The position numbers and the translations under genes were made by a program. The notes under the pieces were generated by a model. That model had not been told where the DNA came from. It saw only the letters and a list, made by a program, of their open reading frames with translations, and made no database searches. 64,000 nt of DNA, taken from assembly GCA_003216725.1 (NCBI GenBank), contig QCIL01000003.1, forward strand, positions 1-64,000, read 5' to 3'. This document shows, piece after piece, positions 17,597 through 38,890 of this stretch (its first letter is position 1; every line of letters starts with the position of its first letter). This DNA is from Prochlorococcus sp. AG-402-L18 (GTDB taxonomy: Bacteria > Cyanobacteriota > Cyanobacteriia > PCC-6307 > Cyanobiaceae).

Positions 17597-17626
17597 AAAC
17601 TAATTTTTAGAAATTAGAATATTTAA

Positions 17627-18853: not shown

Positions 18854-18855
18854 AA

Positions 18856-18885
18856 AAAGGAGGAAATAAATTCCTCCTTTTAATG
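18856..18885. terminator. Bidirectional terminator between chrA and pstS
   Basis: AAAGGAGGAA-ATAAA-TTCCTCCTTT, a perfect 10-bp stem flanked by A- and T-runs, so it can work on both strands. Confidence 0.85.
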
Positions 18886-18898
18886 TTTGTCTTACGAT

Positions 18899-19873: not shown

Positions 19874-19968
19874 TGTTGAAATGATCAAATGATAGACTTC
19901 ATATTTATAGCACTTAATTTGAACACCAATGCTCTTTAACTTTAAATTTATCTTTTAATTAATTAGCT

Positions 19969-19998
19969 CTTAACCTTCTCTTAAACCAAATCTTGATT
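19969..19998 (+). promoter_or_regulatory. Candidate Pho box (pstS side)
   Basis: Three octamers at 11-bp steps: CTTAACCT-tct-CTTAAACC-aaa-TCTTGATT. This matches the cyanobacterial PhoB/SphR box layout. It reads on the strand opposite to pstS; the porin gene is farther away. Confidence 0.6.
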
Positions 19999-20152
19999 AG
20001 AGCTTTTTTCGTTTGGTTTTCAGAATATTTAAAAATAAACTTAGATTAATTTTTAACTTTTATTGATAAAAATTTTGAAATTTGCAGACAATTCTCCTTT
20101 TAATTTAAAAAGAGTTTAAGGTCTATTTAAATTTTTCTTGTTGAGTTTACTT

Positions 20153-20182
20153 CTTACTCATTTCTTAACCTTAACTCGTTTT
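20153..20182 (+). promoter_or_regulatory. Candidate Pho box (porin side)
   Basis: CTTACTCA-ttt-CTTAACCT-taa-CTCGTTTT, three octamers at 11-bp steps, ending 44 bp before the porin ATG on the same strand. Confidence 0.6.
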
Positions 20183-20226
20183 CATATACATGGATACATA
20201 TCCAATTTCACGTGTTGAGTTAATTT

Positions 20227-21321: not shown

Positions 21322-21336
21322 TCAGAATAACAATGT

Positions 21337-21371
21337 TTAAAAGACCTCCAATCTGGAGGTCTTTTTTTTTT
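21337..21371 (+). terminator. Porin terminator
   Basis: AAAGACCTCC-AATCT-GGAGGTCTTT followed by a long T-run; it lies between the convergent porin and phoR genes. Confidence 0.85.
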
Positions 21372-21374
21372 AAA

Positions 21375-22532
21375 CTATAAATCTTCATTAATGCAAGGAA
21401 AGATAGTTTCAATAATTGCTCCACCATCCTTATGATTAAAAGCCTTTATAAAACCTTTATTGTTATTGATTATTTTTTTTGTTATTGAAAGACCTAAACC
21501 ACTTCCACTTTTCTTGAATTTAGTCCTTGATGGATCACCTCTATAAAAACGAGAAAAAATATCATTAAATTCATTTTCTTCTAATCCAATACCTTTATCT
21601 CTAACTCTCATAACAACAGAGCTATCTCTTTTAAAAATTTCAATTTGAATTTCTTCATTAGCTGGGGAATAACGAATAGCATTATCCAAAATATTTATAA
21701 AAGCTCTTTTTAAATTTTCAATATCTGCAGATATAAAATATTTTGTTGGTATCAGTAGTTTTATTTTTATATCTTTTTTTTCTGCAAGTGGTTTTAAGGT
21801 TTGCCAAGATTCCATCACTAAATCTGAAATAGATATTTTTTTATTGTTATTAAAAGCCTCGTTACTTTCTAGCTTAGAAAGTTCTAAAGTTTCTTCGACC
21901 ATTTTTCTTAATCTTTTAGATTCTTTCTTAAGTCTTTTAACAAGATATCTATCTTTCTTTGATACTACTGCTTCCAGTCTTTCGCCTATCAAAATAAGAC
22001 TTGTAAGAGGTGTTTTCAGTTCATGAGACACATCATTGATTAATTGATTCTGTCTTTTTTTTAAGGATTCAATTGATAATTTACTCTCCAACAATATTAA
22101 ATAATTTTTTTTCCTTGCTCTAACAATATTTACAGAAATGGGTTCCCCCGAAATATTGCAATCTAGGCTGATTGGGAAATCTTTTTTTCTTGAATATAAA
22201 ATCTTATTTCTTAGTACTTCGAGCTCATTAATATCATTAATTGCTTTTCCAATAACATCTTTATATTTAATAAACTTAATGAGAGATAAACCTTTCTGAT
22301 TGATAAATTTTATTGTTAGATCAGATGACAAAATCATCCATCCTTGAGATGAATAATCTAACCAAGATAAAAGTTGCTGTGGTTTAACTTTATTAAATGG
22401 AAAATCAAAAATTTGTTGGTTCTTATTTTTAGTTAATTCAATATTTTTATTATTTTTTGAAAATCCTATAACCTTGGTTTTCCATTTCTCATAAAAGAAA
22501 GTTAATACCTCTTGTAGCGTTTTCATTTTCAT
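21375..22532 (-). CDS. phoR: Phosphate-stress sensor histidine kinase PhoR
   Basis: This 385 aa kinase has a PAS-like region (~60-150), a HisKA domain with the phospho-acceptor in LINDVSHELKTPLTSL (~170), and an HATPase domain with N (NLKRAFINILDNAIRYS), G1 (DKGIGL) and G2 (GSGLGLSITKKII) boxes. It lacks a long N-terminal membrane region, so it is probably soluble or weakly membrane-attached. The start codon overlaps the phoB stop as ATGA, indicating coupled translation. Confidence 0.93.
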   Translation of the reverse strand: MKMKTLQEVLTFFYEKWKTKVIGFSKNNKNIELTKNKNQQIFDFPFNKVKPQQLLSWLDYSSQGWMILSSDLTIKFINQKGLSLIKFIKYKDVIGKAINDINELEVLRNKILYSRKKDFPISLDCNISGEPISVNIVRARKKNYLILLESKLSIESLKKRQNQLINDVSHELKTPLTSLILIGERLEAVVSKKDRYLVKRLKKESKRLRKMVEETLELSKLESNEAFNNNKKISISDLVMESWQTLKPLAEKKDIKIKLLIPTKYFISADIENLKRAFINILDNAIRYSPANEEIQIEIFKRDSSVVMRVRDKGIGLEENEFNDIFSRFYRGDPSRTKFKKSGSGLGLSITKKIINNNKGFIKAFNHKDGGAIIETIFPCINEDL

Positions 22533-23257
22533 CCAAACTTATATCCAAAGCCTCTAACAGTTTTAAGAAACTTTGGAGCTGAGGGATCTTCTTCTAATTT
22601 CTCTCTGAGCCACCTAACATGCACATCTACAGTTTTAGTATCACCGATAAAATCAATTTCCCATATTTTTTCAAGTATTAAATCTCTTGACCATACCCTT
22701 TTAGGATTTTTCATAAATAATTCTAATAATTTAAATTCTTTTGGAGATAATGTTATTTCTCTATCGAAAGAAGTTACTCTGCATTCTTCTAAAAACATTT
22801 TTATATGATTAAATTCGATGATAGATTGCGTTTTTTCAATATATTTTTTATTACGTTTAGATCTTCTTATTAATGCTCTTGATCTGGCAATTAATTCATT
22901 TAAACCAAAAGGTTTTGTTAAATAATCATCAGCACCAACCTCTAAACCAAGAACCCTGTCTGATTCATTATCTTTAGCACTCAAAATTAGTATGGGCGTA
23001 TAATTTTCTTCATTTCTAATATTTCTGCATAACTCTAATCCATTTAACCCTGGCAACATTAAATCGAGAATTATAAGGTCAATATCATTTTTAGAATCAT
23101 TAGTAATAAAATCAAATGCAGTTAAACCATCTTTGAAACTTAATACTCTAAAACCTTCGCTATTTAATGTCTCACTGACTGTCAACCTAATACTCTTATC
23201 ATCCTCTACAAGAAGAATTTTTGAGTCTTGCAAACTTTTATGATCTTTAATAGCCAT
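22529..23257 (-). CDS. phoB: Phosphate regulon response regulator PhoB
   Basis: This 242 aa OmpR-family regulator has an intact receiver (VEDD, phospho-acceptor in LIILDLMLPGLNG, TKPFG) and a winged-helix domain ending KTVRGFGYKFG. I prefer the ATG at 23257 to the upstream TTG of the track. It should activate pstS, the adjacent porin and itself under phosphate limitation. It is a useful contrast to the regulator at 4093, which lacks the acidic residues. Confidence 0.94.
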   Translation of the reverse strand: MAIKDHKSLQDSKILLVEDDKSIRLTVSETLNSEGFRVLSFKDGLTAFDFITNDSKNDIDLIILDLMLPGLNGLELCRNIRNEENYTPILILSAKDNESDRVLGLEVGADDYLTKPFGLNELIARSRALIRRSKRNKKYIEKTQSIIEFNHIKMFLEECRVTSFDREITLSPKEFKLLELFMKNPKRVWSRDLILEKIWEIDFIGDTKTVDVHVRWLREKLEEDPSAPKFLKTVRGFGYKFG

Positions 23258-23362
23258 TTGAAAACCCAACAAATTAATTTTATATAATCAAATTTATTTG
23301 ATGTAATTATTTCACATTTACTTTACATTCAATGCTTATTTTTTATTCGATCTTATTAGCTT

Positions 23363-23392
23363 TTTAATGTTCCCTTAAACCTTTTTACTTAT
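23363..23392 (+). promoter_or_regulatory. Possible Pho box upstream of phoB
   Basis: TTTAATGT-tcc-CTTAAACC-ttt-TTACTTAT: three octamers at 11-bp steps, about 105 bp upstream of phoB and on the opposite strand, as at pstS. The outer octamers are poor matches. Confidence 0.3.
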
Positions 23393-23466
23393 TTTTAGAT
23401 TGTCTCCAATAATGTATCGCCTTGAATCTTGGAGACATATTTCATGGAAGGCCCTAGGTCGCTCAG

Positions 23467-23490
23467 GGGGTAGCTGTAGGGGTAGCTGAG
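23467..23490. repeat. Paired repeat, unit 0 right end
   Basis: GGGGTAGCTGTA-GGGGTAGCTGAG: two copies 12 bp apart, nearly the same sequence as the pair at 14346. Confidence 0.75.
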
Positions 23491-23559
23491 CGTATGTATT
23501 TAGTATATAGTGGTATGTACTTTGTGCTAGATTGAGACTCAAACCCATTTGCACCACTT

Positions 23560-23592
23560 AACTAAACCCTAGCTATAGCTTGAAAATATTGA
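23560..23592. repeat. Conserved arm motif before tRNA copy 1
   Basis: ACTAAACCCTAGCTATAGCTTGAAAA. The ACTAAGCA..ATAGCTTGAAAACCT motif recurs at 26231, 27901 and 35776, each time 20-55 bp before a tRNA-Pro 3' copy. Confidence 0.55.
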
Positions 23593-23614
23593 TAAATCTC
23601 ATTTCATAGACCGA

Positions 23615-23660
23615 GTGCTTTGGGAGCACTAGGTCGCAGGTTCGAATCCTGTCGCCCCGA
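23615..23660 (+). repeat. tRNA-Pro 3'-end copy 1 (perfect)
   Basis: 46 nt identical to 14227-14272 (GTGCTTTGGGAGCAC...GCCCCGA). The 5' half of the tRNA is absent, so this is an attachment-site duplication, not a gene. Confidence 0.95.
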
Positions 23661-23679
23661 CTCTTAGAATATAAGTCAT

Positions 23680-23708
23680 AGACAGGTTTCCTAGCCTGTC
23701 TTTTTTAT
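23680..23708 (+). terminator. Terminator behind tRNA copy 1
   Basis: GACAGG-TTTCCTAG-CCTGTC plus TTTTTTATT; same plan as the tRNA-Pro terminator, with changed but compensating stem bases. Confidence 0.8.
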
Positions 23709-23714
23709 TGGGTA

Positions 23715-23756
23715 AAATTTGTCCACGCATAAAGTGGACAGATAGTGGACAAATTT
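23715..23756. repeat. Inverted plus paired direct repeats, unit 1 left end
   Basis: AAATTTGTCCAC (inverted) is followed by GTGGACA at 23734 and again at 23745, 11 bp apart; the second continues as GTGGACAAATTT, the exact complement of the inverted copy. Confidence 0.85.
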
Positions 23757-23778
23757 ATTGGAAATCAATCTAAACTGG

Positions 23779-24261
23779 ATGGTAAAACCATCTTCATTAA
23801 TGGAAGCAAATAAGAACAAGAATCTAGGGAATGCCGGTGAGTTTTATGTATTAGCCCAATTAGCTCAAAGGGGATACATAGCTGGAAAAACAGATGATGG
23901 AACAACTTTGATAGATATCATCGCAACAAATCCAGATGACTTAAGTACAGTAAATATTCAAGTTAAAACCAGAACAATTGATGGTAGAAAAAGTTCATGG
24001 ATGATGGGAAGAAAAAATGAGCAAATACATAAAAATCTTTGGTACGTAGTTGTAGAAATAGGTTCAAACGATGTATTACCTAACTTCTTTATTTTTGAAA
24101 GTTCTGAAGTAAGTGAATGTATAAAAGATACACTCGAAGAATATATGAATACCCTAAAAAGAGATGGTAGTAAAAGGATTGATAAAGGTATAAGACATTT
24201 CGAACCAAGTGAAAAATTTAAAGCAGAGAGAAAAGATAATTGGGATATTATGTTTAATTGA
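23779..24261 (+). CDS. PD-(D/E)XK-like nuclease-fold protein
   Basis: This ~160 aa protein has GNAGEFYVLAQLAQRGY, then TLIDIIATNPDDLSTVNIQVKTR. The pattern E...D...QxK is the active-site layout of the restriction-endonuclease-like fold (DUF4365-like). The role may be DNA cleavage in defence or mobility, but activity is inferred from motifs only. The track starts at TTG 23758, seven bases after the paired repeat; ATG 23779 or 23800 (MEANKNKNLGNAGEF) is more natural. A hypothetical HNH-like gene follows. Confidence 0.65.
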   Translation: MVKPSSLMEANKNKNLGNAGEFYVLAQLAQRGYIAGKTDDGTTLIDIIATNPDDLSTVNIQVKTRTIDGRKSSWMMGRKNEQIHKNLWYVVVEIGSNDVLPNFFIFESSEVSECIKDTLEEYMNTLKRDGSKRIDKGIRHFEPSEKFKAERKDNWDIMFN

Positions 24262-24355
24262 AATGCTTTTTACTTGCATAAAAAGAGAGTGATAGGTCTA
24301 ATGTTTGGTTTGAAAAGGCTTTTTTTAGTAAACCTTATATATAAGTATTAAATCC

Positions 24356-25438
24356 ATGCAACATAATCAAGCTACTTTTGAAAAAGCAATTGCTTTAGTA
24401 AAAGAAGGCTTGCGTCCATACGAAATAGCAAGAAAAATAGATATTAATCCAAGTACTGCTTGTACATGGGTTAAAAAAATTAAAGCAGGACATAAACGTA
24501 TTCAGAAAAGGCAAACTGATCATACAAATGCTGTTTATGGTGAGTGGACAGTAATAAAAGAATTAGATAGAAGACCTCAATATGGAAGTAAAGCAAATTC
24601 TGGGGAAACTATTCCTAATTGGGAAGTTAAATGTAGTTGCGGATATAAGACTGAAAAAACAGGTACTGTTTTAAATCAAATTAAACGAAAATTTGAAGCC
24701 TCTGAAAAAGGAGAAGGTAAAGATTCCTGGAGATTTCACTGTGAGAGTAATCCTATTCATGTTATGCCTTGTTCAATAGGTGAAAAGATTGGAGACTTAG
24801 AAGTTGTAAGTTTTCCTCTTAATGTAGGTCAGAGGAAAAGGTATAAAACTTATAAAGGGGAAAAACCCTCCTACACAAAATCTGGGAAATGGTTTATTGG
24901 TTGTCTGTGTAATGCGTGCAATAAATACACTGCTAAAGATCCGTATTTAGTAACTATGAAAGAATGGAGAGAGAGAAAAGATAGGTTAAAAAAAGATAAA
25001 AATGCAACTTGTGCTTGTGGCTGTAACCGAAGTGTTACTCATGGATTATGCAGACCTCAAAAGGATGGAAGAGATCAAACGTTCACATATAGTATGTGGC
25101 AAAATGCTAAAAAAAATGCAAGAAGAAAAAAAGTTCCATTTGATTTAACGCCTGAATTTGTTGCGTCTTTAAAAGTTCCAGAATATTGCCCTGTCTTAGG
25201 AATCAAAATTATCTCCCAACCATCTGGTGAACAAAGGAATGATAATACACCTTCAATAGATAAATTTTATCCTGATCTTGGATATGTAGAAGGAAATGTT
25301 CAAATAATTAGCTGGAAAGCTAATGCCTTAAAGAGGGATGGGTCTCCCGAAGAATGGGAGAAAATCGCTGAATGGTGCAAAAAAGAAGATATTAAAAAAA
25401 GACTTGAAGGTAAGCATCCTGATCAGCAAAAAATTTAA
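24356..25438 (+). CDS. HTH plus HNH/endonuclease VII-like protein
   Basis: This 360 aa protein starts with a resolvase-like helix-turn-helix (FEKAIALVKEGLRPYEIARKIDINPSTACTWVKKI, residues 8-42). It has several cysteine pairs (CSCGYKT, CLCNACNKY, CACGCNR) likely to bind zinc. It ends with a phage-type HNH-like module: YCPVLGIKI then NDNTPSIDKFYPDLGYVEGNVQIISWKANALK. It is probably a sequence-specific DNA endonuclease. It lies alone after the PD-(D/E)XK-like gene in unit 1. Confidence 0.7.
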   Translation: MQHNQATFEKAIALVKEGLRPYEIARKIDINPSTACTWVKKIKAGHKRIQKRQTDHTNAVYGEWTVIKELDRRPQYGSKANSGETIPNWEVKCSCGYKTEKTGTVLNQIKRKFEASEKGEGKDSWRFHCESNPIHVMPCSIGEKIGDLEVVSFPLNVGQRKRYKTYKGEKPSYTKSGKWFIGCLCNACNKYTAKDPYLVTMKEWRERKDRLKKDKNATCACGCNRSVTHGLCRPQKDGRDQTFTYSMWQNAKKNARRKKVPFDLTPEFVASLKVPEYCPVLGIKIISQPSGEQRNDNTPSIDKFYPDLGYVEGNVQIISWKANALKRDGSPEEWEKIAEWCKKEDIKKRLEGKHPDQQKI

Positions 25439-25474
25439 GAAATAAAGAGAATTATGAGTAGTGCTTTTCCAAAA

Positions 25475-25496
25475 TATGGACAAATTATGGACAACT
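25475..25496. repeat. Paired direct repeat inside unit 1
   Basis: TATGGACAAAT-TATGGACAACT, 11-bp period, closely related to the GTGGACAAAT pairs at the unit ends. It may mark an internal junction between two joined elements. Confidence 0.7.
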
Positions 25497-25498
25497 TC

Positions 25499-25566
25499 AA
25501 TTCTGCTTAACGGTAATTTTCTTGCTTTTTCCTTATTTTTTCGTAAGTATGCGTATATAGCCTTTA
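25499..25566 (+). promoter_or_regulatory. Conserved leader of the MEIPDE-type gene, copy 1
   Basis: TGCTTAACGGTAATTTTCTT...TTCGTAAGTATGCGTATATAG is about 85% the same as the reverse complement of 32381-32446. In both places it lies upstream of a gene beginning MEIPDE. Confidence 0.6.
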
Positions 25567-25583
25567 ATTTGGGGTTGACGATT

Positions 25584-25859
25584 ATGGAAATTCCAGACGA
25601 AATGTTGAAAGAAATTAGAGAAAGTGGATACGATCAAGAGCTTGTATATAACTACATAAGAGAGCTATTAGACAGCGAGAAAAGAAAATTTCCTAAAGAA
25701 AATAACAATCTAGAGCTTATAGACAATTACTTATTAGACCAAGATGTACAAGAACCTGCTGCTGAGATACTGATGGCATCAGAGCTTATAGACAACTACT
25801 TATTAGATAAAAGATTTATGAGAGAGCTTGAAGATAGAGATGAATATGATGCGGCTTAA
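25584..25859 (+). CDS. MEIPDE-type small acidic protein with internal repeat
   Basis: This 91 aa protein (MEIPDEMLKEIRESGYDQEL...) is helical and highly charged. It contains an internal duplication (LELIDNYLLDQD and SELIDNYLLDKR). I start it at the ATG at 25584, which has the same GGGGTTGACGATT context as its 37 aa paralogue at 32183-32296; the track TTG at 25461 includes the paired repeat. Function is unknown. Confidence 0.6.
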   Translation: MEIPDEMLKEIRESGYDQELVYNYIRELLDSEKRKFPKENNNLELIDNYLLDQDVQEPAAEILMASELIDNYLLDKRFMRELEDRDEYDAA

Positions 25860-25873
25860 AAATAACTAATTTT

Positions 25874-26086
25874 TTATGCTGCTAGTTTTTGTCTAGCTTG
25901 TCGTATTTTTAAAATTGAATAAGTTTTTGAAGCCCATTTTTGAGAATTATTAGATTCAGTAACTAATATCTTTCTAGTTAATTTGCCTATTTTAAATACT
26001 TCTACTAAGCCAAAATAAATTATTGCCAGAACCTTAGTTATGTTTACTGCGACTGCTGCCATCTTTTCAATTCTTTGATCTTGCAT
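25874..26086 (-). CDS. 70 aa protein with one hydrophobic helix
   Basis: MQDQRIEKMAAVAVNITKVLAIIYFGLVEVF is followed by a basic helix (KTYSILKIRQARQKL). It has the look of a small membrane-associated helical protein. It is the last gene before the right end of unit 1. I do not recognise it. Confidence 0.4.
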   Translation of the reverse strand: MQDQRIEKMAAVAVNITKVLAIIYFGLVEVFKIGKLTRKILVTESNNSQKWASKTYSILKIRQARQKLAA

Positions 26087-26179
26087 TTGAACTTATTAAA
26101 GCCAACCAAAATTACCAGTTGTTAGAAATTATGCAATGACAAAAAAAAGAGAGGTAAAGCTCCACGTGATTTTGAAAAA

Positions 26180-26201
26180 GTGGACAAATAGTGGACAAAT
26201 G
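26180..26201. repeat. Paired direct repeat, unit 1 right end
   Basis: GTGGACAAATA-GTGGACAAATG, 11-bp period; same sequence as the pair at 23734. Confidence 0.85.
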
Positions 26202-26230
26202 TTGCTTAAATTCTCAGGACAAACTACGCA

Positions 26231-26268
26231 GAACTAAGCAAAAAAATAGTCATAGCTTGAAAACCTAG
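26231..26268. repeat. Conserved arm motif before tRNA copy 2
   Basis: GAACTAAGCAAAAAAATAGT followed by CATAGCTTGAAAACCTAG; nearly the same as at 27897-27937. Confidence 0.65.
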
Positions 26269-26288
26269 TGCTGCACTAGAGCTGTTAA

Positions 26289-26334
26289 GTGCTTTGGGAG
26301 CACTAGGTCGCAGGTTCGAATCCTGTCGCCCCGA
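26289..26334 (+). repeat. tRNA-Pro 3'-end copy 2 (perfect)
   Basis: 46 nt identical to the end of tRNA-Pro at 14227-14272. Confidence 0.95.
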
Positions 26335-26356
26335 CCATTTAAAAACCAAGTCATAC

Positions 26357-26384
26357 TAGCGAGTCTCCCAACTCGCTTTTTTAT
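26357..26384 (+). terminator. Terminator behind tRNA copy 2
   Basis: GCGAGT-CTCCCA-ACTCGC plus TTTTTTATT; one base different from the tRNA-Pro terminator loop. The ~24 bp before it (AAAAACCAAGTCATACTA) also match. Confidence 0.85.
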
Positions 26385-26394
26385 TGGAAATTAT

Positions 26395-26430
26395 GACGGT
26401 ATCTTTATCCGTCAAAAATCCGTCAAAAAA
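26395..26430. repeat. Inverted plus paired direct repeats, unit 2 left end
   Basis: GACGG (inverted, 26395) then CCGTCAAAAAT at 26409 and CCGTCAAAAAA at 26420, 11 bp apart. The same arrangement, with a different sequence, is seen at 23715-23756. Confidence 0.85.
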
Positions 26431-26480
26431 TTTTTGTACCCTTTAAGTCTTTTTTGATGAGATGACTTAAAATTAAAACA

Positions 26481-27821
26481 ATGAAAATAAATATGGTGAA
26501 AAAATTTTTTTTAATATGTACATATATTTTTAATCTTCTAATATTTGTTGAGATTCCAAGATCATTCGCCGTTGAAATAAATTGTGATTCACCTGTTTTT
26601 AAAAAAAAACCAATTTGTATAAAAAAAAGAGAAAAATTAAAAAAGCTGAATGAATGCAAACTTTTAAAAAATATTCAAAATTCAGAAATTCGCTTATACA
26701 AAGGGAATAAGCTTTTTGAATCTTTAGATTGTTTACCTAATGAAGAACCCCTTGTCTTTTTAAATAAAAAAGGCCAAAAAAAATATATTCTCACTTCAAG
26801 AGTAAGATCATTTGCAGGAAGTACATATCTAGTTTTTGAAAACCAATCAGCTTTTTATATTCATTTTTCTAGTCCTATTGCAAGCTTTCCCTTTAAAATT
26901 ATTGGAATTGATGGTGAAGAATACGAGTTAAATCCTAAAAGAGTAAGCCCATACACCAATAAATACGTGTTAAACAGAAAACAAATAAAAGCTTTCAAAA
27001 GTCTTGAAGGATCTTTTGATATTGCATTAGATCCAGGATATAGAAAATGGTCTGTTGTAAGGGAAGTTCCAGTTATCAAAAAATACTTTAGAACGAAGAA
27101 GTCCGAATGGAAAAGTAGATCGCCGGCATTAATTGGAAGGAAGTTACCATCGATAAAGGTTTCACAAAAACCGCAAGATGGTTCTTCAATTTTCAAAAAT
27201 TCAATTGAGAGTTTAGCGACAATTGAGCTTGGGAATGGCTCATCTGGTTCTGGATTTTTTGTTGATAATGATTTAATAGCAACTAATAGTCATGTAGTTA
27301 GCGGAGAAAAGGATATTTCTGTAATAACTTATGACAAAGGAAGTCATGAAGGTGAAGTTGTTTATGATGATGAATTATATGATTTCGCGCTAGTAAAGAT
27401 TAATACTCAAAATGAATATAAACCATTACCTGTTTGCAGAAACAGTAGTTTAAAAACAGGAGACCCAGTATACGTTTTAGGAAGTCCAGGAGCAGCAATT
27501 GTTGATAAAGGATACTTAGAAAATTCAATTACAGGTGGTTTGGTTAGTAGTGTTAGATATGTTGATGAGCAATTATTTATTCAAACCGATGCAGCAATGA
27601 ATCCCGGTAATAGTGGAGGCCCTTTGCTGAATAAATTTGGAGCAGTAGTAGGAATATCAACTTTTATCCTCAGTGATCAAAGAATACAGGGGATATATTT
27701 TGCAGGTGAAATATCTAATATAATCTCTGAAAGTGGTTTAATCAAATTGGACACTTCGATCAACACTGAATATTGCGGTCTTGAGAAAGATGCTAATAAT
27801 ATTTTTGATAGATTTTTTTAA
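26481..27821 (+). CDS. Secreted trypsin-like (HtrA/Deg family) serine protease
   Basis: This 446 aa protein has a signal peptide (residues 1-30, ending FAVE), a ~200 aa N-terminal region of unknown type, and a trypsin-like protease domain (~240-430). The catalytic triad is visible as ATNSHVV (His), DFALVKI (Asp) and GNSGGPL (Ser). No PDZ domain follows, unlike DegP/HhoA. Four or more cysteines in the mature protein suggest disulfides. It is the sole cargo of unit 2. Confidence 0.85.
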   Translation: MKINMVKKFFLICTYIFNLLIFVEIPRSFAVEINCDSPVFKKKPICIKKREKLKKLNECKLLKNIQNSEIRLYKGNKLFESLDCLPNEEPLVFLNKKGQKKYILTSRVRSFAGSTYLVFENQSAFYIHFSSPIASFPFKIIGIDGEEYELNPKRVSPYTNKYVLNRKQIKAFKSLEGSFDIALDPGYRKWSVVREVPVIKKYFRTKKSEWKSRSPALIGRKLPSIKVSQKPQDGSSIFKNSIESLATIELGNGSSGSGFFVDNDLIATNSHVVSGEKDISVITYDKGSHEGEVVYDDELYDFALVKINTQNEYKPLPVCRNSSLKTGDPVYVLGSPGAAIVDKGYLENSITGGLVSSVRYVDEQLFIQTDAAMNPGNSGGPLLNKFGAVVGISTFILSDQRIQGIYFAGEISNIISESGLIKLDTSINTEYCGLEKDANNIFDRFF

Positions 27822-27849
27822 AATGTTTATTTGATTTCTTAATATAATT

Positions 27850-27871
27850 CCGTCAAAATTCCGTCAAAAGT
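27850..27871. repeat. Paired direct repeat, unit 2 right end
   Basis: CCGTCAAAATT-CCGTCAAAAGT, 11-bp period; same core as the pair at 26409. Confidence 0.85.
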
Positions 27872-27896
27872 TTCGTCTTTAGTCTGAACAAATCAC

Positions 27897-27937
27897 GAAA
27901 AACTAAGCAGAAAAAAAGATATAGCTTGAAAACCTAG
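27897..27937. repeat. Conserved arm motif before tRNA copy 3
   Basis: AAAACTAAGCAGAAAAAAAG followed by ATATAGCTTGAAAACCTAG, as at 26231. Confidence 0.65.
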
Positions 27938-27957
27938 TGCCTCACTTACCCCATCAA

Positions 27958-28003
27958 GTGCTTTGGGAGCACTAGGTCGCAGGTTCGAATCCTGTCGCCC
28001 CGA
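27958..28003 (+). repeat. tRNA-Pro 3'-end copy 3 (perfect)
   Basis: 46 nt identical to the tRNA-Pro 3' end. Unlike the other well-preserved copies, no matching terminator follows. Confidence 0.95.
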
Positions 28004-28092
28004 TGCAGTTATAGCATTAAGTCTCAGCTAGTAATAATTTTCCCTCAAAAAAGCGTTCCCTCATATTTCCATCAAATGGGACTTGGTTCTAC

Positions 28093-28824
28093 TTATTTTT
28101 TATACTCAGGCAAGAGTTCTCTAGTGATCGAGTCTTTAATAAAATCCCAGTCTTTATAAACTGTTTTCCATGCTTTTACAGTTTCTTTCCCAATTTCATT
28201 TATTCTCAAACCTGTTGATCCATAACTAGAAATCATAAGAAATGCTTTGCCATTAATTATTGGATAATTAGCTAGTGCTTCGGCAATTTCTTTATTTACA
28301 TCAAAAACACCATCACAGCCATTAACAACAAGATATTCTCCATTACCTGTTAGTAAAGCAAGAGAAGTTACTTCATTCGAACCAGTTGCTGATCTTCCTC
28401 CCAACCTACCCTGACGAATAGTTTGTTCCATTATTTTGATTTCACTTCTACCAAAAAAAGATGCCACTCTAAAAGTCTTATTATAATTACGATCAAATAC
28501 ACCAATAGTCTTTCCAGTAATTGGATTTTCAATAATTATTGGCTCAGATAATGGGAATTCATCACTATCTAAACCTTGGGTTCTCCAATCTTCTTTGATA
28601 ACAAATTTTTTAATATTCGGAAATTTCTGATTTAGTTTAGTTTTTTTTATTTTTATGTATTCCTCCCTCCTTGTAGGCCTACAAAGCACTAAATCATTAT
28701 CTTTACCAAAAATATCTGGGCCCGTTTCAAAAGAGATAGGATAAGCAAAAACTTTTGGGATAAAAGCGTTTAATGCCAATATGAATAATAATCTTAGCCT
28801 CATAATTCTAAAAAATTTTTTCAA
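28093..28824 (-). CDS. Exported protein of unknown function
   Basis: This 243 aa protein begins MKKFFRIMRLRLLFILALNAFIPKVFA, a signal peptide with cleavage after VFA. The mature part is soluble, with GRLGGRSATGSNEVTSLALL and ANYPIINGKAFLMISSYGSTGLRINEIG as its most ordered-looking stretches. I find no known motif. The PLD-type nuclease at 28945 is divergent from it. Periplasmic location is inferred from the signal peptide. Confidence 0.6.
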   Translation of the reverse strand: MKKFFRIMRLRLLFILALNAFIPKVFAYPISFETGPDIFGKDNDLVLCRPTRREEYIKIKKTKLNQKFPNIKKFVIKEDWRTQGLDSDEFPLSEPIIIENPITGKTIGVFDRNYNKTFRVASFFGRSEIKIMEQTIRQGRLGGRSATGSNEVTSLALLTGNGEYLVVNGCDGVFDVNKEIAEALANYPIINGKAFLMISSYGSTGLRINEIGKETVKAWKTVYKDWDFIKDSITRELLPEYKK

Positions 28825-28944
28825 TTATAAATTGCCATTTAAAACTTTAAAGCCTGTTAATTTAGTATTTAAAAAACTGATAAATAGTTAAATTGCATAC
28901 TTCAAAAAAGTCTTTTAAACTAATATGAATAATTTTCTCGCTAG

Positions 28945-29979
28945 ATGTATTGCGAAAATCTTGAAAATCTTGTACTCAAAAGACATCACTCCAATCGAGC
29001 CGATGAGCTTTTAATACTTGGTGGATACATTGGATTTAAACCCTTAGAGAGGATATCAAAAGAAGAAATAAATACAACAATAATTTATGGTTGTATGGCA
29101 AAATCAAATTTGAATAAAGAAGGACATAAGAAATATTTAGAACTTACAAAAAACTCAAATAATCTTGAAGTCTTCTATCAAAGAAAATACAATCACTCAA
29201 AAATTTATTGTTGGTTAAGAAATAAAAAAGTTGTTCAGATTTTTGCAGGCTCTGCTAACTTTTCCACTGAAGGTCTCTGCAATGATTATCAAGAAGTACT
29301 ATTTGATATCGACAATAAATACTTCGAAGAAACCTACACTTTTGTAGAAAATGCTTTAAGTGATAGCCAAAATTGTAAAGAATTCATTTTGCCCCCCAAG
29401 AAGGAAAAAAAGTCATCCAAGGAAAAAACTTCTTTGGATCAAATCATTTCATATTCACCACCTAAGGCGAAACTTTCATTAAGAAGCAGTCTTGGATGTT
29501 TCGAAAAGTCAGGAATAAATATTAATAAAACAGGCAAAAAAAGAATTAATCAAAAAGGCAAAAAAGTATCTCATGTGAATATTAATGATTGTTATGTACC
29601 AATAAGATCCTCGTTAATTGACAAGTTACCAGATCTTTTCCCTAATAAAGGTATTAATGTGAATATTGGCTCTGGTTGGGGAAGAGACAAAAAAAAATCA
29701 ACTACTAATGCAGAATTTTTATTTGATGATGGAGAGGTCATAGAAATCAATTTTCAACAAAAAGGGCCAGAGCGAAAAAAAGGGCAATTTCTATATAAAG
29801 GATTTAGATCATCTCGATCTAACGCTATACTTGGCAAGTATTTGAGAAAAAGAATGAATATTAAAGACGGTGCTCCTTTTACTGAGTTAGATTTTAAAAA
29901 TTATGGTAGAGATAACATCGAACTCACCCTTTTAGCAGAGGGGCAATATTTTGCCGACTTTGGAGTTAAAAAACAATAG
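28945..29979 (+). CDS. PLD-family restriction nuclease (NgoFVII-like)
   Basis: This 344 aa protein has an N-terminal phospholipase D-like half-site: YNHSKIYCWLRNKK (HxK) followed by FAGSANFSTEGL with the conserved Asn. This is the arrangement in NgoFVII-type and related restriction endonucleases, which work as dimers. The C-terminal half is basic and may recognise DNA. No methyltransferase is nearby, so host protection is not explained here. It is the main cargo of unit 3. Confidence 0.72.
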   Translation: MYCENLENLVLKRHHSNRADELLILGGYIGFKPLERISKEEINTTIIYGCMAKSNLNKEGHKKYLELTKNSNNLEVFYQRKYNHSKIYCWLRNKKVVQIFAGSANFSTEGLCNDYQEVLFDIDNKYFEETYTFVENALSDSQNCKEFILPPKKEKKSSKEKTSLDQIISYSPPKAKLSLRSSLGCFEKSGININKTGKKRINQKGKKVSHVNINDCYVPIRSSLIDKLPDLFPNKGINVNIGSGWGRDKKKSTTNAEFLFDDGEVIEINFQQKGPERKKGQFLYKGFRSSRSNAILGKYLRKRMNIKDGAPFTELDFKNYGRDNIELTLLAEGQYFADFGVKKQ

Positions 29980-30023
29980 TTTTTATTTGATAATTTAAAG
30001 TTGTTTGACAAGTGAATAAGATA

Positions 30024-30045
30024 GCCGACAAATCGCCGATAAATA
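30024..30045. repeat. Paired direct repeat, unit 3 right end
   Basis: GCCGACAAATC-GCCGATAAATA, 11-bp period, one mismatch between the two copies. Confidence 0.75.
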
Positions 30046-30131
30046 TATCTGAGTTTGTCATGTCAAACCCTGCAATCCCCCCAACTATTTATTCATGGTC
30101 TGTAGACATAGTGTTCAACTAGGCTTGTTAA

Positions 30132-30177
30132 GTGCTTTGGGAACACTAGGTCGCAGGTTCGAATCGTGTCGCCCCGA
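30132..30177 (+). repeat. tRNA-Pro 3'-end copy 4 (two mismatches)
   Basis: 46 nt with two changes from tRNA-Pro (GGGAACAC and TCGTGTC). Confidence 0.9.
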
Positions 30178-30199
30178 ATCATAAAAACCGATTCATAAT

Positions 30200-30227
30200 A
30201 GAGAGTTTCCCATGCTCTCTTTTTTAT
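30200..30227 (+). terminator. Terminator behind tRNA copy 4
   Basis: AGAGAG-TTTCCCATG-CTCTCT plus TTTTTTATT, preceded by ATAAAAACCGATTCATA, like the segment after copy 2. Confidence 0.75.
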
Positions 30228-30260
30228 TACTTTCTCTTAGAACAATGCGACTGAGAGAGC

Positions 30261-30317
30261 TTTGAGCGAGGATTTGCTAAACCTTGCATAACTTTGCTGC
30301 CTGACCTCGCTCAAGCT
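30261..30317. other. Long-range hairpin element
   Basis: CTTTGAGCGAGG pairs with CCTCGCTCAAGC over ~10 bp around a 33-nt loop. The loop and right arm (CCTTGCATAACTTTGCTGCCTGACCTCGC) resemble 42305-42333, where the left arm is not preserved. It could be a structured RNA or a mobile remnant. Confidence 0.35.
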
Positions 30318-30377
30318 AATTGTGACATCCACAATATATTCCTATTAATTCTTAAGATAAGAAAAACAATAATTAAA

Positions 30378-30548
30378 ATGAAATCACTGCTTTCGAGTAG
30401 AAGATCAAAAGCAATATTAGGTATTGGTTTAATAGCTATTAGTATTGGTGCTATTTCAAAAAAGTTTATCAGCTACCCAACTGGAGGCTGTATGAAAGGT
30501 AATCAAGAATTGACTTTAAATAAAGGGATAAACAAGTTCTTTATTTAA
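30378..30548 (+). CDS. 56 aa membrane microprotein
   Basis: MKSLLSSRRSKAILGIGLIA then ISIGAISKKFISYPTGGCMK: one hydrophobic helix after a basic start. The ATG at 30378 is chosen, as the track start at 30294 runs through the hairpin element. Function unknown. Confidence 0.45.
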   Translation: MKSLLSSRRSKAILGIGLIAISIGAISKKFISYPTGGCMKGNQELTLNKGINKFFI

Positions 30549-30564
30549 CGATTAAGCGTTTCAT

Positions 30565-30828
30565 TTACGCAACAAGTTCAATCGAATATACAGTATCCTT
30601 ACAGTTATTTTTTTTATCCCATTCTTTTGCGAAAGGAGATTCCATTTCTGCACCTAATTTTTCCAAGTCAGTACAGTTCATTAATAAATGAGATTTGTAT
30701 TCATTGACTTTTACAAACTCATAATCAGTTACAAAATCTTTGCACATTTCTTCAAGAAATAATGTTGTTACATCATTTTTAAATTCTTCAAATGTACAGC
30801 TAAAAGTTGAGATAATTAAAGTATTCAT
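30565..30828 (-). CDS. 87 aa soluble protein, alpha-beta sandwich-like
   Basis: MNTLIISTFSCTFEEFKNDVTTLFLEE... has the strand-helix rhythm and length of the small stress-related DUF3764-type proteins, but the sequence is diverged and I do not assign it firmly. Its leader contains a GGGGCAATTAGCCCC hairpin just before the ATG and a TACAAT box, shared in part with the DUF3764 gene at 36890. Confidence 0.55.
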   Translation of the reverse strand: MNTLIISTFSCTFEEFKNDVTTLFLEEMCKDFVTDYEFVKVNEYKSHLLMNCTDLEKLGAEMESPFAKEWDKKNNCKDTVYSIELVA

Positions 30829-30834
30829 TAAAAA

Positions 30835-30872
30835 AGGGGCTAATTGCCCCTTATTGTATATTGACTGTCAAT
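30835..30872 (-). promoter_or_regulatory. Promoter/leader element with GGGGCAATTAGCCCC hairpin
   Basis: Minus strand: TTGACAGTCAATATACAATAAGGGGCAATTAGCCCC. The CTACAATAA(G)GGGCAATTA part recurs before 36890 and, decayed, at 33007-33033. Confidence 0.4.
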
Positions 30873-30878
30873 CTCATT

Positions 30879-31151
30879 CTAAGAGTAGACTTTAGCAACT
30901 ATTGGACCAGCTTCTTCATCGGTAAATACAGGTGTAGTTTCCCAATTTAGAAATTCCCCCCATTCTGCAACATGTTGATATATTGCTTTTGGATCATCAG
31001 TCTTTAAAACTATCCAACCCTCTAAAGAACCGGGTGCATGATATCTTCCAATCATCTCAACTCCAGGATAATCTCCCCCACCACCAAGAAATTTTTCTGC
31101 ACCTTTTTGATGATATCCGGCCTTAAATGACCAATGCTGCACATAAAGCAT
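30879..31151 (-). CDS. DUF3303 family protein
   Basis: This 90 aa protein, MLYVQHWSFKAGYHQKGAEKFLGGGGDYPGVEMIGRYHAPGSLEGWIVLKTDD, has the DUF3303 plan: a strand with HWSF, a GRYHAPGS turn and a GW(I/L)V strand. It is probably a ferredoxin-like fold dimer. It lies upstream of 30565 on the same strand. Function is unknown; the family is common in picocyanobacterial accessory regions. Confidence 0.75.
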   Translation of the reverse strand: MLYVQHWSFKAGYHQKGAEKFLGGGGDYPGVEMIGRYHAPGSLEGWIVLKTDDPKAIYQHVAEWGEFLNWETTPVFTDEEAGPIVAKVYS

Positions 31152-31406
31152 TTTATTTTTTAATTTTTATTGGCTTTCTATTACTAGCAAAAAAAATTAT
31201 TCCTGAAAATAAATATTGTTAATTACAATTTATTGTAGAACGACTTTAAAAAAACTATCAAATCTCAGGCCTAGTTTACAGAGAGCGCTATGTGATAGCA
31301 ATTTGATTTAAAAGTGAGCAAATCAGTGGAGCGAGGTATCTTTTTATTGTTGGAACTTCTGGCTTTATAGATATTTGATTTTTATTCGAAATTCGTTTCT
31401 ATATAT

Positions 31407-31724
31407 TTAGTTAATTATTTTTTTAATTTTTTCTAAATTCCACTTATTAAATATTAATTTCATTTCTCTTTCGTAGTATCTTACTTTCTTTGAGAAAGGT
31501 AGTTGTTGAATAATTATCCCAAAGGGAAATTTAAAGAAAGAAGAAACATAAACAATATAAAACTCTGCAAAAGATGGTTTTATTGGGAGAGGTAAATTTT
31601 TTAAATATGCCCAATCAATGCATGGTTTTAGTTGCTTATCACTAGCAGCAATATTTTTTTTACATCTCCAATACGAGAATAGATAGACGCAAATGAAGAA
31701 AGGTATAGGGAGAAGTCGCAACAT
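31407..31724 (-). CDS. 105 aa basic protein, possibly membrane-anchored
   Basis: MLRLLPIPFFICVYLFSYWRC is a hydrophobic N-terminus, followed by a basic region with FAEFYIVYVSSFFKFPFGII. It looks like a small membrane protein. I recognise no family and its codon use is ordinary. Confidence 0.45.
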   Translation of the reverse strand: MLRLLPIPFFICVYLFSYWRCKKNIAASDKQLKPCIDWAYLKNLPLPIKPSFAEFYIVYVSSFFKFPFGIIIQQLPFSKKVRYYEREMKLIFNKWNLEKIKKIIN

Positions 31725-32055
31725 TAAATATCAAGGATTATTTTTTCAAATTAATTTTATAAATATTAGTTTAGTTATTTTTAAAATTTTTGCTATAAAT
31801 TAACTGAGGCCAAACCTCGTAAGCACACTCTACGTTTGCTGCAAGACATAGATTGATTCAATATAGTTGCGAGTCGATTTAATAACCTTTTCAGTAGTTG
31901 GAATTTCTGGAGGGGTTTCTTGTTTAATACCCAATATCGTTTTTTGGATTTGTTATAAAAATAATCAATTTAAGGACTAGGTTTGCAGGTAAATCTAAAG
32001 GCTTCAATAGTAGTAAAGCCAAACCCTGGGTTACATTAAAACCTTTCTCTTCCAT
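31725..32055. other. Intergenic stretch in unit 4
   Basis: No ORF that I can support. TAGTTGGAATTTCTGG (about 31896-31911) resembles TTGTTGGAACTTCTGG (about 31349-31364), suggesting a faint duplicated non-coding piece. Confidence 0.35.
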
Positions 32056-32193
32056 TTAACTAGGTAGTTGATGGGTGGGCGGTGCATGAAACTTTCTTTT
32101 CTTTCTTTTTGATCTCTTATAAACAACAAATACTCCTAAACCTAATAAAGGCATCAATAGACCTTCTACAAAAATTGGGAAATTAAACATCAT
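32056..32193 (-). CDS. 45 aa single-span membrane microprotein
   Basis: Hand-read: MMFNFPIFVEGLLMPLLGLGVFVVYKRSKRKKRK then a short proline-rich tail. The helix is followed by a strongly basic stop-transfer segment. It overlaps the MEIPDE-type gene by 11 bp, suggesting coupling. Confidence 0.45.
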   Translation of the reverse strand: MMFNFPIFVEGLLMPLLGLGVFVVYKRSKRKKRKFHAPPTHQLPS

Positions 32194-32296
32194 ATTCTTT
32201 ATCGCTGTCTAATAGCTCTCTTATGTAGGTGTATAGAGGCTCTTGATCATATCCGCTTTCTCTAATTTCTTTGATGATTTCGTCTGGAATTTCCAT
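32183..32296 (-). CDS. MEIPDE-type microprotein, 37 aa
   Basis: Hand-read: MEIPDEIIKEIRESGYDQEP then LYTYIRELLDSDKEYDV. About three quarters of its residues match the start of the protein at 25584. The shared GGGGTTAACGA context and the longer shared leader confirm the start codon. The internal repeat of the longer paralogue is lacking. Confidence 0.6.
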   Translation of the reverse strand: MEIPDEIIKEIRESGYDQEPLYTYIRELLDSDKEYDV

Positions 32297-32380
32297 AGTC
32301 GTTAACCCCCATGTGAAAATTTTTTAGTGAAAAATAAGCCTAAATAAGCAATTAATAGTAATATTTAGAGCAAATTAGAG

Positions 32381-32446
32381 CCTATAAACGCATACTTACG
32401 AAGATATAAGAAAAAAGCAAGAAAATCACCGTTAAGCTGAATTGGA
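32381..32446 (-). promoter_or_regulatory. Conserved leader of the MEIPDE-type gene, copy 2
   Basis: Reverse complement CAGCTTAACGGTGATTTTCT...TTCGTAAGTATGCGTTTATAG matches 25499-25566. Here it lies about 85 bp upstream of the ATG, versus about 20 bp at the other locus. Confidence 0.6.
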
Positions 32447-32530
32447 TTCTGTAGCTTATTGCCCTCGACCTTATACTTATATTGATTGACAGTCGATCTA
32501 AAATAGAGTGTGTAAAATCCCTCTTTATTT

Positions 32531-32656
32531 ATGTCCTCTTCAATGAAAGATTTCTTAGATAAATTTTTTGATTTATGTAGAGAATATCAAGAAGAAATTC
32601 CACCTCAAAAGATGGCTGAAGTTTTAAGAAATTACGCAGATAGGCTAGATGGATAA
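32531..32656 (+). CDS. 41 aa acidic helical microprotein
   Basis: Hand-read: MSSSMKDFLDKFFDLCREYQ then EEIPPQKMAEVLRNYADRLDG. Amphipathic helices and a well-formed length suggest a real gene. Its upstream region has TTGATTGACAGTCGATC and a TAAAAT box. Confidence 0.5.
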   Translation: MSSSMKDFLDKFFDLCREYQEEIPPQKMAEVLRNYADRLDG

Positions 32657-32682
32657 GTTAAGGTTGGGTAAGAGATAAAGAA

Positions 32683-32817
32683 TTAGATCCAAATTAGATT
32701 AGAAAAAAAGAAATACCAAAAAAATGCTATTGCATTAAGTCCAAATATTATTCCAAAAAAAATATATGCAAATTTTTTACCTATAAAAGCTGAATCAGGT
32801 TCAAGTTTTACTCTCAT
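32683..32817 (-). CDS. 44 aa single-span membrane microprotein
   Basis: Hand-read: MRVKLEPDSAFIGKKFAYIF then FGIIFGLNAIAFFWYFFFSN. It has one long hydrophobic helix with aromatic residues. Its function is unknown. Confidence 0.4.
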   Translation of the reverse strand: MRVKLEPDSAFIGKKFAYIFFGIIFGLNAIAFFWYFFFSNLIWI

Positions 32818-32853
32818 TTTGTGCCCTAAATTTGGTGGTAAATCTAGCACCTT

Positions 32854-33000
32854 TTACAATAAAATTTTCTTCTTTAGATTAATATTTACAGGCATCAAAA
32901 AATTTGAACATGGACTGGCATATCCTCCTTGAATAATTAACTCATCTGCCCTATTTTTTTCTCTTTCTGAAATTATCTTTAGTAGGTCTTTAGTAAAATA
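32854..33000 (-). pseudogene. Relic related to the N-terminus of the PLD-type nuclease
   Basis: An open stretch without start codon reads EREKNRADELIIQGGYASPC and ends NFLMPVNINLKKKILL. The NRADEL(I/L)I..GGY part matches NRADELLILGGYIGF in the nuclease at 28945. It may be a truncated copy; the match is short. Confidence 0.3.
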
Positions 33001-33006
33001 AAAAAA

Positions 33007-33033
33007 AAGAGCTAATGGCCCCTTATTGTAGAT
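33007..33033 (-). promoter_or_regulatory. Decayed copy of the CTACAATAAGGGGC element
   Basis: Minus strand CTACAATAAGGGGCCATTAGCTC, like 30835-30872 but with the hairpin stem broken. It precedes the relic at 32854-33000. Confidence 0.35.
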
Positions 33034-33051
33034 CGAATGTCAAATAAAAAC

Positions 33052-33072
33052 TCACGCAAAATTCACGCAAAT
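33052..33072. repeat. Paired direct repeat, unit 4 right end
   Basis: TCACGCAAAAT-TCACGCAAATC, 11-bp period. Confidence 0.8.
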
Positions 33073-33161
33073 CAACTTTAGATAGTCCTAATTAGTCTAC
33101 AATTTTTTCTCTAAAAGCACTTATATCATAATAAGTCTCAGGTATAGATTCAATCTTACGG

Positions 33162-33207
33162 ATTTTTTGGGAATGCTAGGTCGCAGATTCTAATCCTGTC
33201 TCATCGA
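33162..33207 (+). repeat. tRNA-Pro 3'-end copy 5 (decayed)
   Basis: TTTGGGAATGCTAGGTCGCA then GATTCTAATCCTGTCTCATCGA; about three quarters of the 46 positions still match. A partly broken terminator follows (AGATAGATTTCCCAACCTGTATTTTTTATT). Confidence 0.8.
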
Positions 33208-33266
33208 CTCTAAAAAACAAAGTCCTAGATAGATTTCCCAACCTGTATTTTTTATTACTTATATTC

Positions 33267-33305
33267 TGTCCTCATCAATGATTGCGGACAAATTCCGGAC
33301 AAAAG
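33267..33305. repeat. Inverted plus paired direct repeats, unit 5 left end
   Basis: TGTCC (inverted) then GCGGACAAATT-CCGGACAAAAG with 11-bp period at 33284 and 33295; same architecture as units 1 and 2. Confidence 0.75.
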
Positions 33306-35396: not shown

Positions 35397-35775
35397 ATGG
35401 AATCTATATATGTAATTATTTTTATTACTTGCTTTGTATATTTAATTTTTGACTCATTCAAAAATATAAATATTAATAGATAGCTAATGTTTTTTGGAAG
35501 CTAATAAAAATTTTCTTCTTATATAAAAGAATACCAATGTAGTTATTATCATTACAGGTGGATGAAATGATATTGAATTTAGATATTCGAAGTAATCAAA
35601 TGATTCCAAAATTTTTTGCTCATAAATATCCTAAAACTATATTTCATCTCTCAAATTTTTATTGATTTAAATAGATCAATATCTTGTATAAAATGCTATT
35701 TAAATTTTTATCAACTAATATTTTATGGAAAATTGCGGAAAAATATTACTTTATTTGTCACGGCACACCTCCCAG

Positions 35776-38868: not shown

Positions 38869-38890
38869 GCCGCCAAAATGCAGTCAAAAA
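38869..38890. repeat. Paired direct repeat after tRNA copy 7
   Basis: GCCGCCAAAAT-GCAGTCAAAAA, 11-bp period, partly decayed. Confidence 0.5.

Follow-up and report, generated by a model that had tools for sequence, protein, structure and literature searches.

The stretch considered here, referred to as the window, comprises 64,000 nucleotides of Prochlorococcus sp. AG-402-L18 (contig QCIL01000003.1 of assembly GCA_003216725.1, positions 1 to 64,000), whose genome is Prochlorococcus-like, consists of 44 contigs, and is 85% complete. It holds an intact tRNA-Pro(TGG) gene, behind which 3' fragments of this gene end at positions 23660, 26334, 28003, 30177, 33208, and 35878 (identities of 100, 100, 100, 96, 81, and 91%, respectively) and delimit six units, the block at 14273–23660 being unit 0 and the blocks after it units 1 to 5. 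The unit ends carry pairs of short direct repeats with a period of 11 or 12 bp, which we propose are very probably arm-type (P and P') binding sites of tyrosine integrases. Much of the local adaptation of Prochlorococcus resides in islands behind tRNA genes, and the movement of packages that lack an integrase has so far been hard to test. Tycheposons are described, in passages of a later account, as Prochlorococcus elements at tRNA genes with a tyrosine recombinase and nutrient cargo (PMC10872708). The window units resemble them in that they lie behind a tRNA gene in Prochlorococcus with a tRNA fragment at the far end, but neither the open reading frames (ORFs) nor Pfam scans revealed an integrase in any window unit, and PF00589 gave no match in the 85% complete genome to which they belong. 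Because they lack a tyrosine recombinase of their own, we refer to them as integrase-less units at a tycheposon site. The features, with the pairs named as arms, are as follows.

14199–14273 (+): intact tRNA-Pro(TGG), the attachment gene (attB/attL), called by ARAGORN
14346–14366 (+): left arm pair of unit 0, period 12, GGGTAGCTCTAGGGGTAGCTC
23467–23488 (+): right arm pair of unit 0, period 12, GGGGTAGCTGTAGGGGTAGCTG, the same as the pair beside the L167 integrase
23615–23660 (+): tRNA-Pro 3' fragment (core) separating units 0 and 1
23719–23754 (+): left arm of unit 1, the inverted half TTTGTCCAC and then GTGGACAGATAGTGGACAAAT
23758–25859 (+): cargo of unit 1, weakly PD-(D/E)XK-like and helix-turn-helix-containing ORFs, no integrase
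25475–25494 (+): internal pair of unit 1, TATGGACAAATTATGGACAA
26179–26200 (+): right arm pair of unit 1, AGTGGACAAATAGTGGACAAAT, the same as the pair beside the L164 integrase
26223–26243 (+): 10-bp-period repeat ACTACGCAGAACTAAGCAAAA between right arm and core, a candidate directionality-factor site
26289–26334 (+): tRNA-Pro 3' fragment separating units 1 and 2
26393–26429 (+): left arm of unit 2, the inverted half TGACGG and then ATCCGTCAAAAATCCGTCAAAAA
26481–27821 (+): cargo of unit 2, a trypsin-like peptidase (Pfam PF13365, E 3e-31)
27846–27869 (+): right arm pair of unit 2, AATTCCGTCAAAATTCCGTCAAAA, with an identical 24 bp beside the L166 integrase
27958–28003 (+): tRNA-Pro 3' fragment separating units 2 and 3
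28039–28077 (+): decayed left arm of unit 3, TTCCCTCAAAA class
28093–29979 (strand unassigned): cargo of unit 3, an unknown protein and an NgoFVII-type restriction endonuclease (28945–29979; Pfam PF09565, E 4e-26)
30024–30044 (+): right arm pair of unit 3, GCCGACAAATCGCCGATAAAT, of the class of the L160 and L145 integrases and unlike its left arm
30132–30177 (+): tRNA-Pro 3' fragment (96%) separating units 3 and 4
30249–30270 (+): decayed left arm of unit 4, TGAGCGAG class
33050–33071 (+): right arm pair of unit 4, ACTCACGCAAAATTCACGCAAA, unlike its left arm; cognate integrase not found in the integrase set
33162–33208 (+): decayed tRNA-Pro fragment (81%) separating units 4 and 5
33282–33303 (+): left arm pair of unit 5, TTGCGGACAAATTCCGGACAAA, of the class of the L159 integrase
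35723–35743 (+): decayed right arm of unit 5, TTATGGAAAATTGCGGAAAAA
35833–35878 (+): decayed tRNA-Pro fragment, right end of unit 5
38869–38890 (+): decayed pair, GCCGCCAAAATGCAGTCAAAAA, following a remnant of the tRNA near 38773 and forming the oldest visible left arm

An earlier note on this DNA had described the pairs as unit-end features with a constant spacing of 11 bp whose sequence, in units 1 and 2, agrees between the two ends. All of the pairs that it named are present, with exact period-11 runs at 23733 (AGTGGACAGATAGTGGACA), 26179 (AGTGGACAAATAGTGGACAAAT), 26407 (ATCCGTCAAAAATCCGTCAAAAA), 27846 (AATTCCGTCAAAATTCCGTCAAAA), 25475, 33052, and 33285, but two of them, at 30024 (GCCGACAAATCGCCGATAAAT) and 38869 (GCCGCCAAAATGCAGTCAAAAA), consist of imperfect repeats. 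The left ends also show the inverted halves, in the form TTTGTCCAC gcataaa GTGGACA at 23719 and TGACGG at 26393. One listed pair, at 25475, lies inside unit 1, away from any tRNA fragment. The block to the left of unit 1 (14273–23660), which the note had not listed, has the same arrangement with a 12-bp period. The agreement between ends extends to unit 5, with its decayed right copy at 35723, but not to units 3 (left TTCCCTC, right GCCGACA) and 4 (left TGAGCGAG, right TCACGCAAA). The internal pair at 25475 probably marks the left end of another element that became fused, the sequence after it being found also behind a left arm in L081. The same sequence (25495–25570) recurs as its reverse complement near 32360–32460, which would fit the insertion of a piece from the same element family in the opposite direction.

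For comparison with other genomes, stretches no longer than 20 kb, taken around the tRNA-Pro islands of the genus, were cut at the tRNA fragments to give 175 distinct units. The GTGGACA pattern was used to choose some of these stretches and that class is therefore favored, but the remaining classes were not selected by arm and the whole-genome pattern searches are free of this bias. The background consisted of the unit interiors (403 kb), the parts of the window that flank the array, and pattern searches for which the reversed pattern served as the backwards control, and a single complexity filter was applied identically to end zones and interiors. Pairs with a period of 11 occur at 3.36 per kb in the end zones and 0.037 per kb in the interiors, a difference of about 90-fold, and the corresponding values are 1.36 and 0.042 for period 12 and 0.35 and 0.047 for period 10, while no other period rises at the ends of the 175 units. 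The 38 kb of the window outside the array contain one period-11 pair and none of period 10 or 12. The possibility raised in the earlier note that such pairs are equally common elsewhere is contradicted by this enrichment and by the near-exclusive location of two pair sequences at two fixed distances from tRNA-Pro fragments in 101 genomes, in which the GTGGACANNTAGTGGACAAAT pattern gave 27 hits (15 genomes), the TCCGTCAAAANTCCGTCAAAA pattern 13 hits (9 genomes), and the backwards control none. Specifically, 21 of 24 measured GTGGACA loci lie 120–131 bp before or 108–110 bp after a fixed point of the tRNA-Pro fragment, and 12 of 13 CCGTCAAAA hits lie 120 bp before or 107–109 bp after it, the thirteenth being at a contig edge. 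The second possibility raised there, that the two ends of a unit do not match in other genomes, does not hold either: with a match defined as a common word of at least 7 bp at the two ends, 74 of the 87 units with a pair at both ends match, compared with 8.6 on average and at most 18 in 400 shuffles.

The positions of the pairs relative to the tRNA are constrained on both sides. Left pairs start about 30, 51, or 73 bp past the tRNA end, in steps of approximately two helical turns, and one arm class can occupy two of these positions (TGAGCGAG at 29 and 73–75, GGGCGAGG at 30 and 73–74, and TAGCGATTA at 31 and 74–76). The distance of the right pair is fixed within a class, mostly at 84–88, 97–100, 121–126, or 194 bp. 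These few families suggest that helical phase is what matters. Repeated sites flank, on both sides, a core with the same sequence as the attachment gene, which is the layout of the arms in a phage attachment site (attP).

The earlier note had also allowed that the pairs serve directionality factors of the excisionase type rather than the integrase. Short direct repeats spaced by one turn are common targets of directionality factors, and a 10-bp-period repeat (variants of ACTACGCAGA ACTAAGCAAA, as at 26223, or of TGCAGTCTCG in another clade) does occur in many units, exclusively in the interval between right arm and core. The sites of such factors usually lie on one arm, whereas the pairs lie on both sides of the core, track the integrase phylogeny, and are exchanged together with the integrase N-terminal domain, as described below. 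We therefore consider it very unlikely that the pairs bind a directionality factor, which fits them more poorly than an integrase; the right-side-only repeat at 26223 is the better candidate and could be a site of this kind.

Relatives of the tycheposon-like L084 integrase are encoded in 97 of 249 genomes of the genus. Their genes are at the right end of the elements and read away from the tRNA fragment, with an arm pair between the start codon and the core. In the integrase-bearing elements, as in the phages discussed below, a tyrosine-family integrase is encoded together with its attP, whereas the window units encode none. The arms of the window units nevertheless have counterparts beside integrases elsewhere: L164 has AGTGGACAAATAGTGGACAAAT (unit 1), L166 has AATTCCGTCAAAATTCCGTCAAAA (unit 2), L167 has GGGGTAGCTGTAGGGGTAGCTG (unit 0), L160 has GCCGACAAATCGCCGACAAAT (unit 3, right), and L159 has TTGCGGACAAATTGCGGACAAAT (unit 5), so that five of the six window units have arms that agree over 9 bp, without a difference, with those of an element that bears an integrase. 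Among the integrase-less units in general, 59 of 84 right arms equal an integrase arm, as judged by 9-mer identity with the same period and offset (a criterion that replaced looser matching of 8-bp words), against 0.65 with shuffled repeat units. The right pair could also be regarded as a mere operator through which the integrase represses itself, given that in several elements it is only a few bases from the integrase start codon and that KplE1 intS represses itself through overlapping att sites, with an overlap of att site and integrase promoter (PMC2951348). Such a role can coexist with that of an arm site, but as the whole explanation it is extremely unlikely, as the right pair is kept in units that have no integrase, and a matching left pair, far from the integrase gene, is kept in units of all kinds.

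The earlier note had suggested correlating the pair sequence with the recombinase subtype, and the phylogeny shows such an association. On a tree of 76 integrases, the arm period classes need 7 changes compared with 31.1 for shuffled labels, a contrast to which near-copies contribute, and both arm sequence and offset also cluster. In the offset-85 clade, approximately the first 60 residues of the integrase behave like a separate block. The L159 and L166 integrases differ by 3% outside this N-terminal block and by 59% inside it, and their arms differ at 3 of 10 positions; at the DNA level they are mostly 86–96% identical in the catalytic part, 43–63% in the N-terminal codons and the arm, and 76–90% from there up to the core. 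L160 and L165 have the same pattern of block exchange, and L145 and L160 have the N-terminal block and the arm in common but differ by 32% elsewhere. The three pairs indicate that the N-terminal block and the arm have been exchanged together. As for the proteins themselves, PF00589 matches the catalytic domain weakly and a profile search matches it to 4a8e, which places it in the tyrosine recombinase fold. In a structural model of the GTGGACA integrase (L189; mean predicted local distance difference test score, pLDDT, of 81), for which the closest PDB chain is full-length lambda integrase (1z1b), the N-terminus is predicted to consist of a helix, three strands, and a helix.

An attP of the kind that joining the ends of the chromosomal units would give is found in contigs of uncultured phages. 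Eleven IMG/VR contigs encode relatives of these integrases (36–43% in an alignment search), and in nine of them a pair, half of tRNA-Pro, and a second pair lie in a row before the integrase gene. The two pairs match in eight contigs (L229, TTTTGAGCAG; L230 and L233, TAGGCCGC; L231, CTAGGATACA; L232 and L234–L236, CTAGATTAC) and differ in L226. Where the core is the 3' half of the tRNA, the gaps are 28–30 bp on the far side and 80–93 bp on the integrase side, which is the geometry of one tycheposon clade. L235 also has terminase, portal, and tail genes, and the hosts of these contigs are assigned by the tRNA match alone. By its sequence, this arrangement is the joined attP that the chromosomal units imply. 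It also bears on the notion that the pairs are the ends of another kind of transposon or the iterons of a plasmid. Paired short repeats occur at Tn7-like ends and at plasmid origins too, but here they have the same direct orientation at both ends, a fixed distance to a tRNA core, adjoining tyrosine integrases, and the same layout on the two sides of a phage attP core, leaving that notion with a close to negligible probability. In L230 and L233 the core is the 5' half of tRNA-Pro, which would explain the L081-type integrases found upstream of the intact tRNA gene; this family (L081, L173, L178) has its own arm pairs and represents a second use of the gene. The searches also had negative outcomes: the units themselves, searched against phage-record DNA, gave only tRNA-Pro matches among the matches listed, neither the exact GTGGACA pair nor, in a single-sequence search, the GTGGACA integrase was found in IMG/VR, and the integrase of the phage contigs had no match in 50,697 phage records.

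The interpretation put forward in the earlier note, that the pairs are arm-type sites of element-specific tyrosine recombinases, fits the geometry, the matching of ends, the integrase neighbors, the co-inheritance within clades, the N-terminal exchanges, and the phage attP. On this basis, and bearing in mind that all of our conclusions rest on sequence and models, we infer binding, strand exchange, and action in trans according to the following hypothetical mechanism. When a unit is circular its ends would meet to form an attP in the order right-end pair (P arm), tRNA-Pro half (core), and left-end pair (P' arm). The N-terminal domain of the integrase would bind the pair, one site per helical turn, while the catalytic part would exchange strands in the tRNA-Pro core. 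The sequence of the pair would serve as an address that is read by one integrase subtype. The window units would then carry the addresses of integrases that reside in longer elements of other strains, and would most likely be mobilized in trans when an integrase-bearing element is present in the cell.

Integrase-less units have traveled recently. In the complete genome G270, in which no relative of the tycheposon integrase was found, a GTGGACA unit lies directly behind the intact tRNA-Pro. Between G374 and G302, G344, or G349, a 4.37-kb integrase-less unit shows 97.6–97.9% identity; G373 and G374 have a 1.45-kb unit in common at 99.3% identity, and G270 and G457 a 3.0-kb unit at 97.7%. The one core gene compared is only 84–86% identical in these comparisons, which indicates recent travel of the units; their neighbors differ in part. 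The simplest reading is that an integrase acted on them in trans, which we consider probable, with import by homologous recombination as the main alternative. The arm sites could also be real and the integrase-less units mere remnants that lost their integrase in place and never moved in trans. The unlike ends of units 3 and 4, the internal pair of unit 1, and the decay of the older fragments point to deletion and fusion within arrays, and homologous recombination could carry whole blocks between strains. Nevertheless, integrase-less units (0.6–4.4 kb) outnumber the integrase-bearing ones and can be found directly behind an intact tRNA gene, as in G270, and near-identical copies occur in diverged genomes, partly with different neighbors, and so we regard in-place loss as rather unlikely.

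Several results weigh against the mechanism as a whole or against parts of it. Unlike ends are seen in 13 of the 87 units, including window units 3 and 4, and the arm classes TTAGCGATTA, TGAGCGAG, TCACGCAAAA, and AGTGCCCAAAA have no integrase in the set. In a partial Mantel test with 13 integrases, the correlation of the arm with the N-terminal domain given the rest of the protein (r 0.29) was below that of the arm with the rest given the N-terminal domain (r 0.41). The test did not separate the N-terminal domain from the rest, and the claim for this domain therefore rests on the three block exchanges. The N-terminal domain alone had no Pfam match and no significant fold match in the PDB. Finally, the divergence of the genomes was gauged by only one core gene, the DNA chosen originally having been dropped when it proved to be a variable region.

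In a broader view, to which we would give an even chance, there is a population-wide address system in which a single tRNA-Pro gene gathers integrase-less packages coded for the integrases of other elements or temperate phages of the same waters. Since the N-terminal domain, the right arm, the core, and the left arm would be contiguous in the circle, one crossover there could recode an integrase or a package, and both codes and partners would be exchangeable. Some of its components are already known, namely tycheposons and the paired arm sites of mycobacteriophages. In Cluster K phages, Giles, and L5, pairs of 11-bp repeats lie on both sides of the attP core, the arm sequence in Cluster K varies along with N-terminal residues of the integrase, and mycobacteriophage attP sites can further contain an additional, inverted site as well as a terminator located between core and arm (PMC3203893). 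In contrast, each mycobacteriophage has one attP with an adjoining integrase, whereas here many codes are present at one tRNA, mostly on integrase-less units, the period is 10, 11, or 12 depending on the clade, and the whole N-terminal block is exchanged with the arm. Tycheposons differ from the window units in having their own recombinase, and the passages of later accounts compared here make no mention of arm sites (PMC10872708), the founding description lying outside this comparison. The clusters of attC sites lacking an integron integrase (CALINs), which are integron cassette arrays, consist of integrase-less packages moved by an integrase supplied elsewhere (PMC11389934), as is proposed here for the units, but they are based on attC, whereas here the core is a tRNA half and the address is in the flanking arm pairs; neither attC sites nor an integron integrase turned up in the units, for which no dedicated attC search was made. 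The cyanophages P-SS2 and P-SSP7/S-TIP37 have, in the sections concerned, an attP with tRNA identity beside the integrase gene (PMC2784084, PMC8776855), but to tRNA-Met and tRNA-Leu, not tRNA-Pro, and arm pairs are not mentioned in those sections. As far as we have seen, four points are new: the multi-code integrase-less arrays at one tRNA, the integrases elsewhere that match them, the exchange of the N-terminal domain as a block with its arm, and the connection to phage contigs.

Because the arm code ties each package to one integrase subtype, sequence is sufficient for assigning a helper to its cargo, and the movement of genes for adaptation to the ocean becomes traceable, including that of the phosphate-gene block in the window, which carries such a code. 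Contigs of uncultured phages that share this attP design are relevant to whether lysogeny occurs in marine picocyanobacteria, the isolates of which are described, in the relevant section of one account, as being without intact prophages (PMC8776855). Integrases that differ almost only in the N-terminal domain and the arm represent natural swap experiments on how an integrase reads DNA.

Unit 0 contains genes for an ArsR-type regulator, GAPDH, a chromate transporter family protein, a PstS-like binding protein, a histidine kinase, and a response regulator. Its matching 12-bp arm pairs at both ends indicate that this phosphate-type gene cluster is itself a unit, and in L118, L119, and L125 close homologues share a tRNA-Pro element with an integrase that belongs to a different arm class. 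The NgoFVII-type endonuclease of unit 3 has no obvious methyltransferase partner within that unit. No packaging family was found among the scanned cargo proteins of the window, for which no dedicated phage-satellite test was made. A terminator-like hairpin and T run lie directly behind the tRNA fragment at 23660–23715 and at the left ends of many units, and as these are brought by the units, insertion would also restore the terminator of the tRNA gene. An exact 21-mer, GTGGACAAATAGTGGACAAAT, is found as well in the non-cyanobacterial contigs L185, L188, L191, and L199 (titled as Bacteroidota and Lachnospiraceae), which is above simple random expectation.

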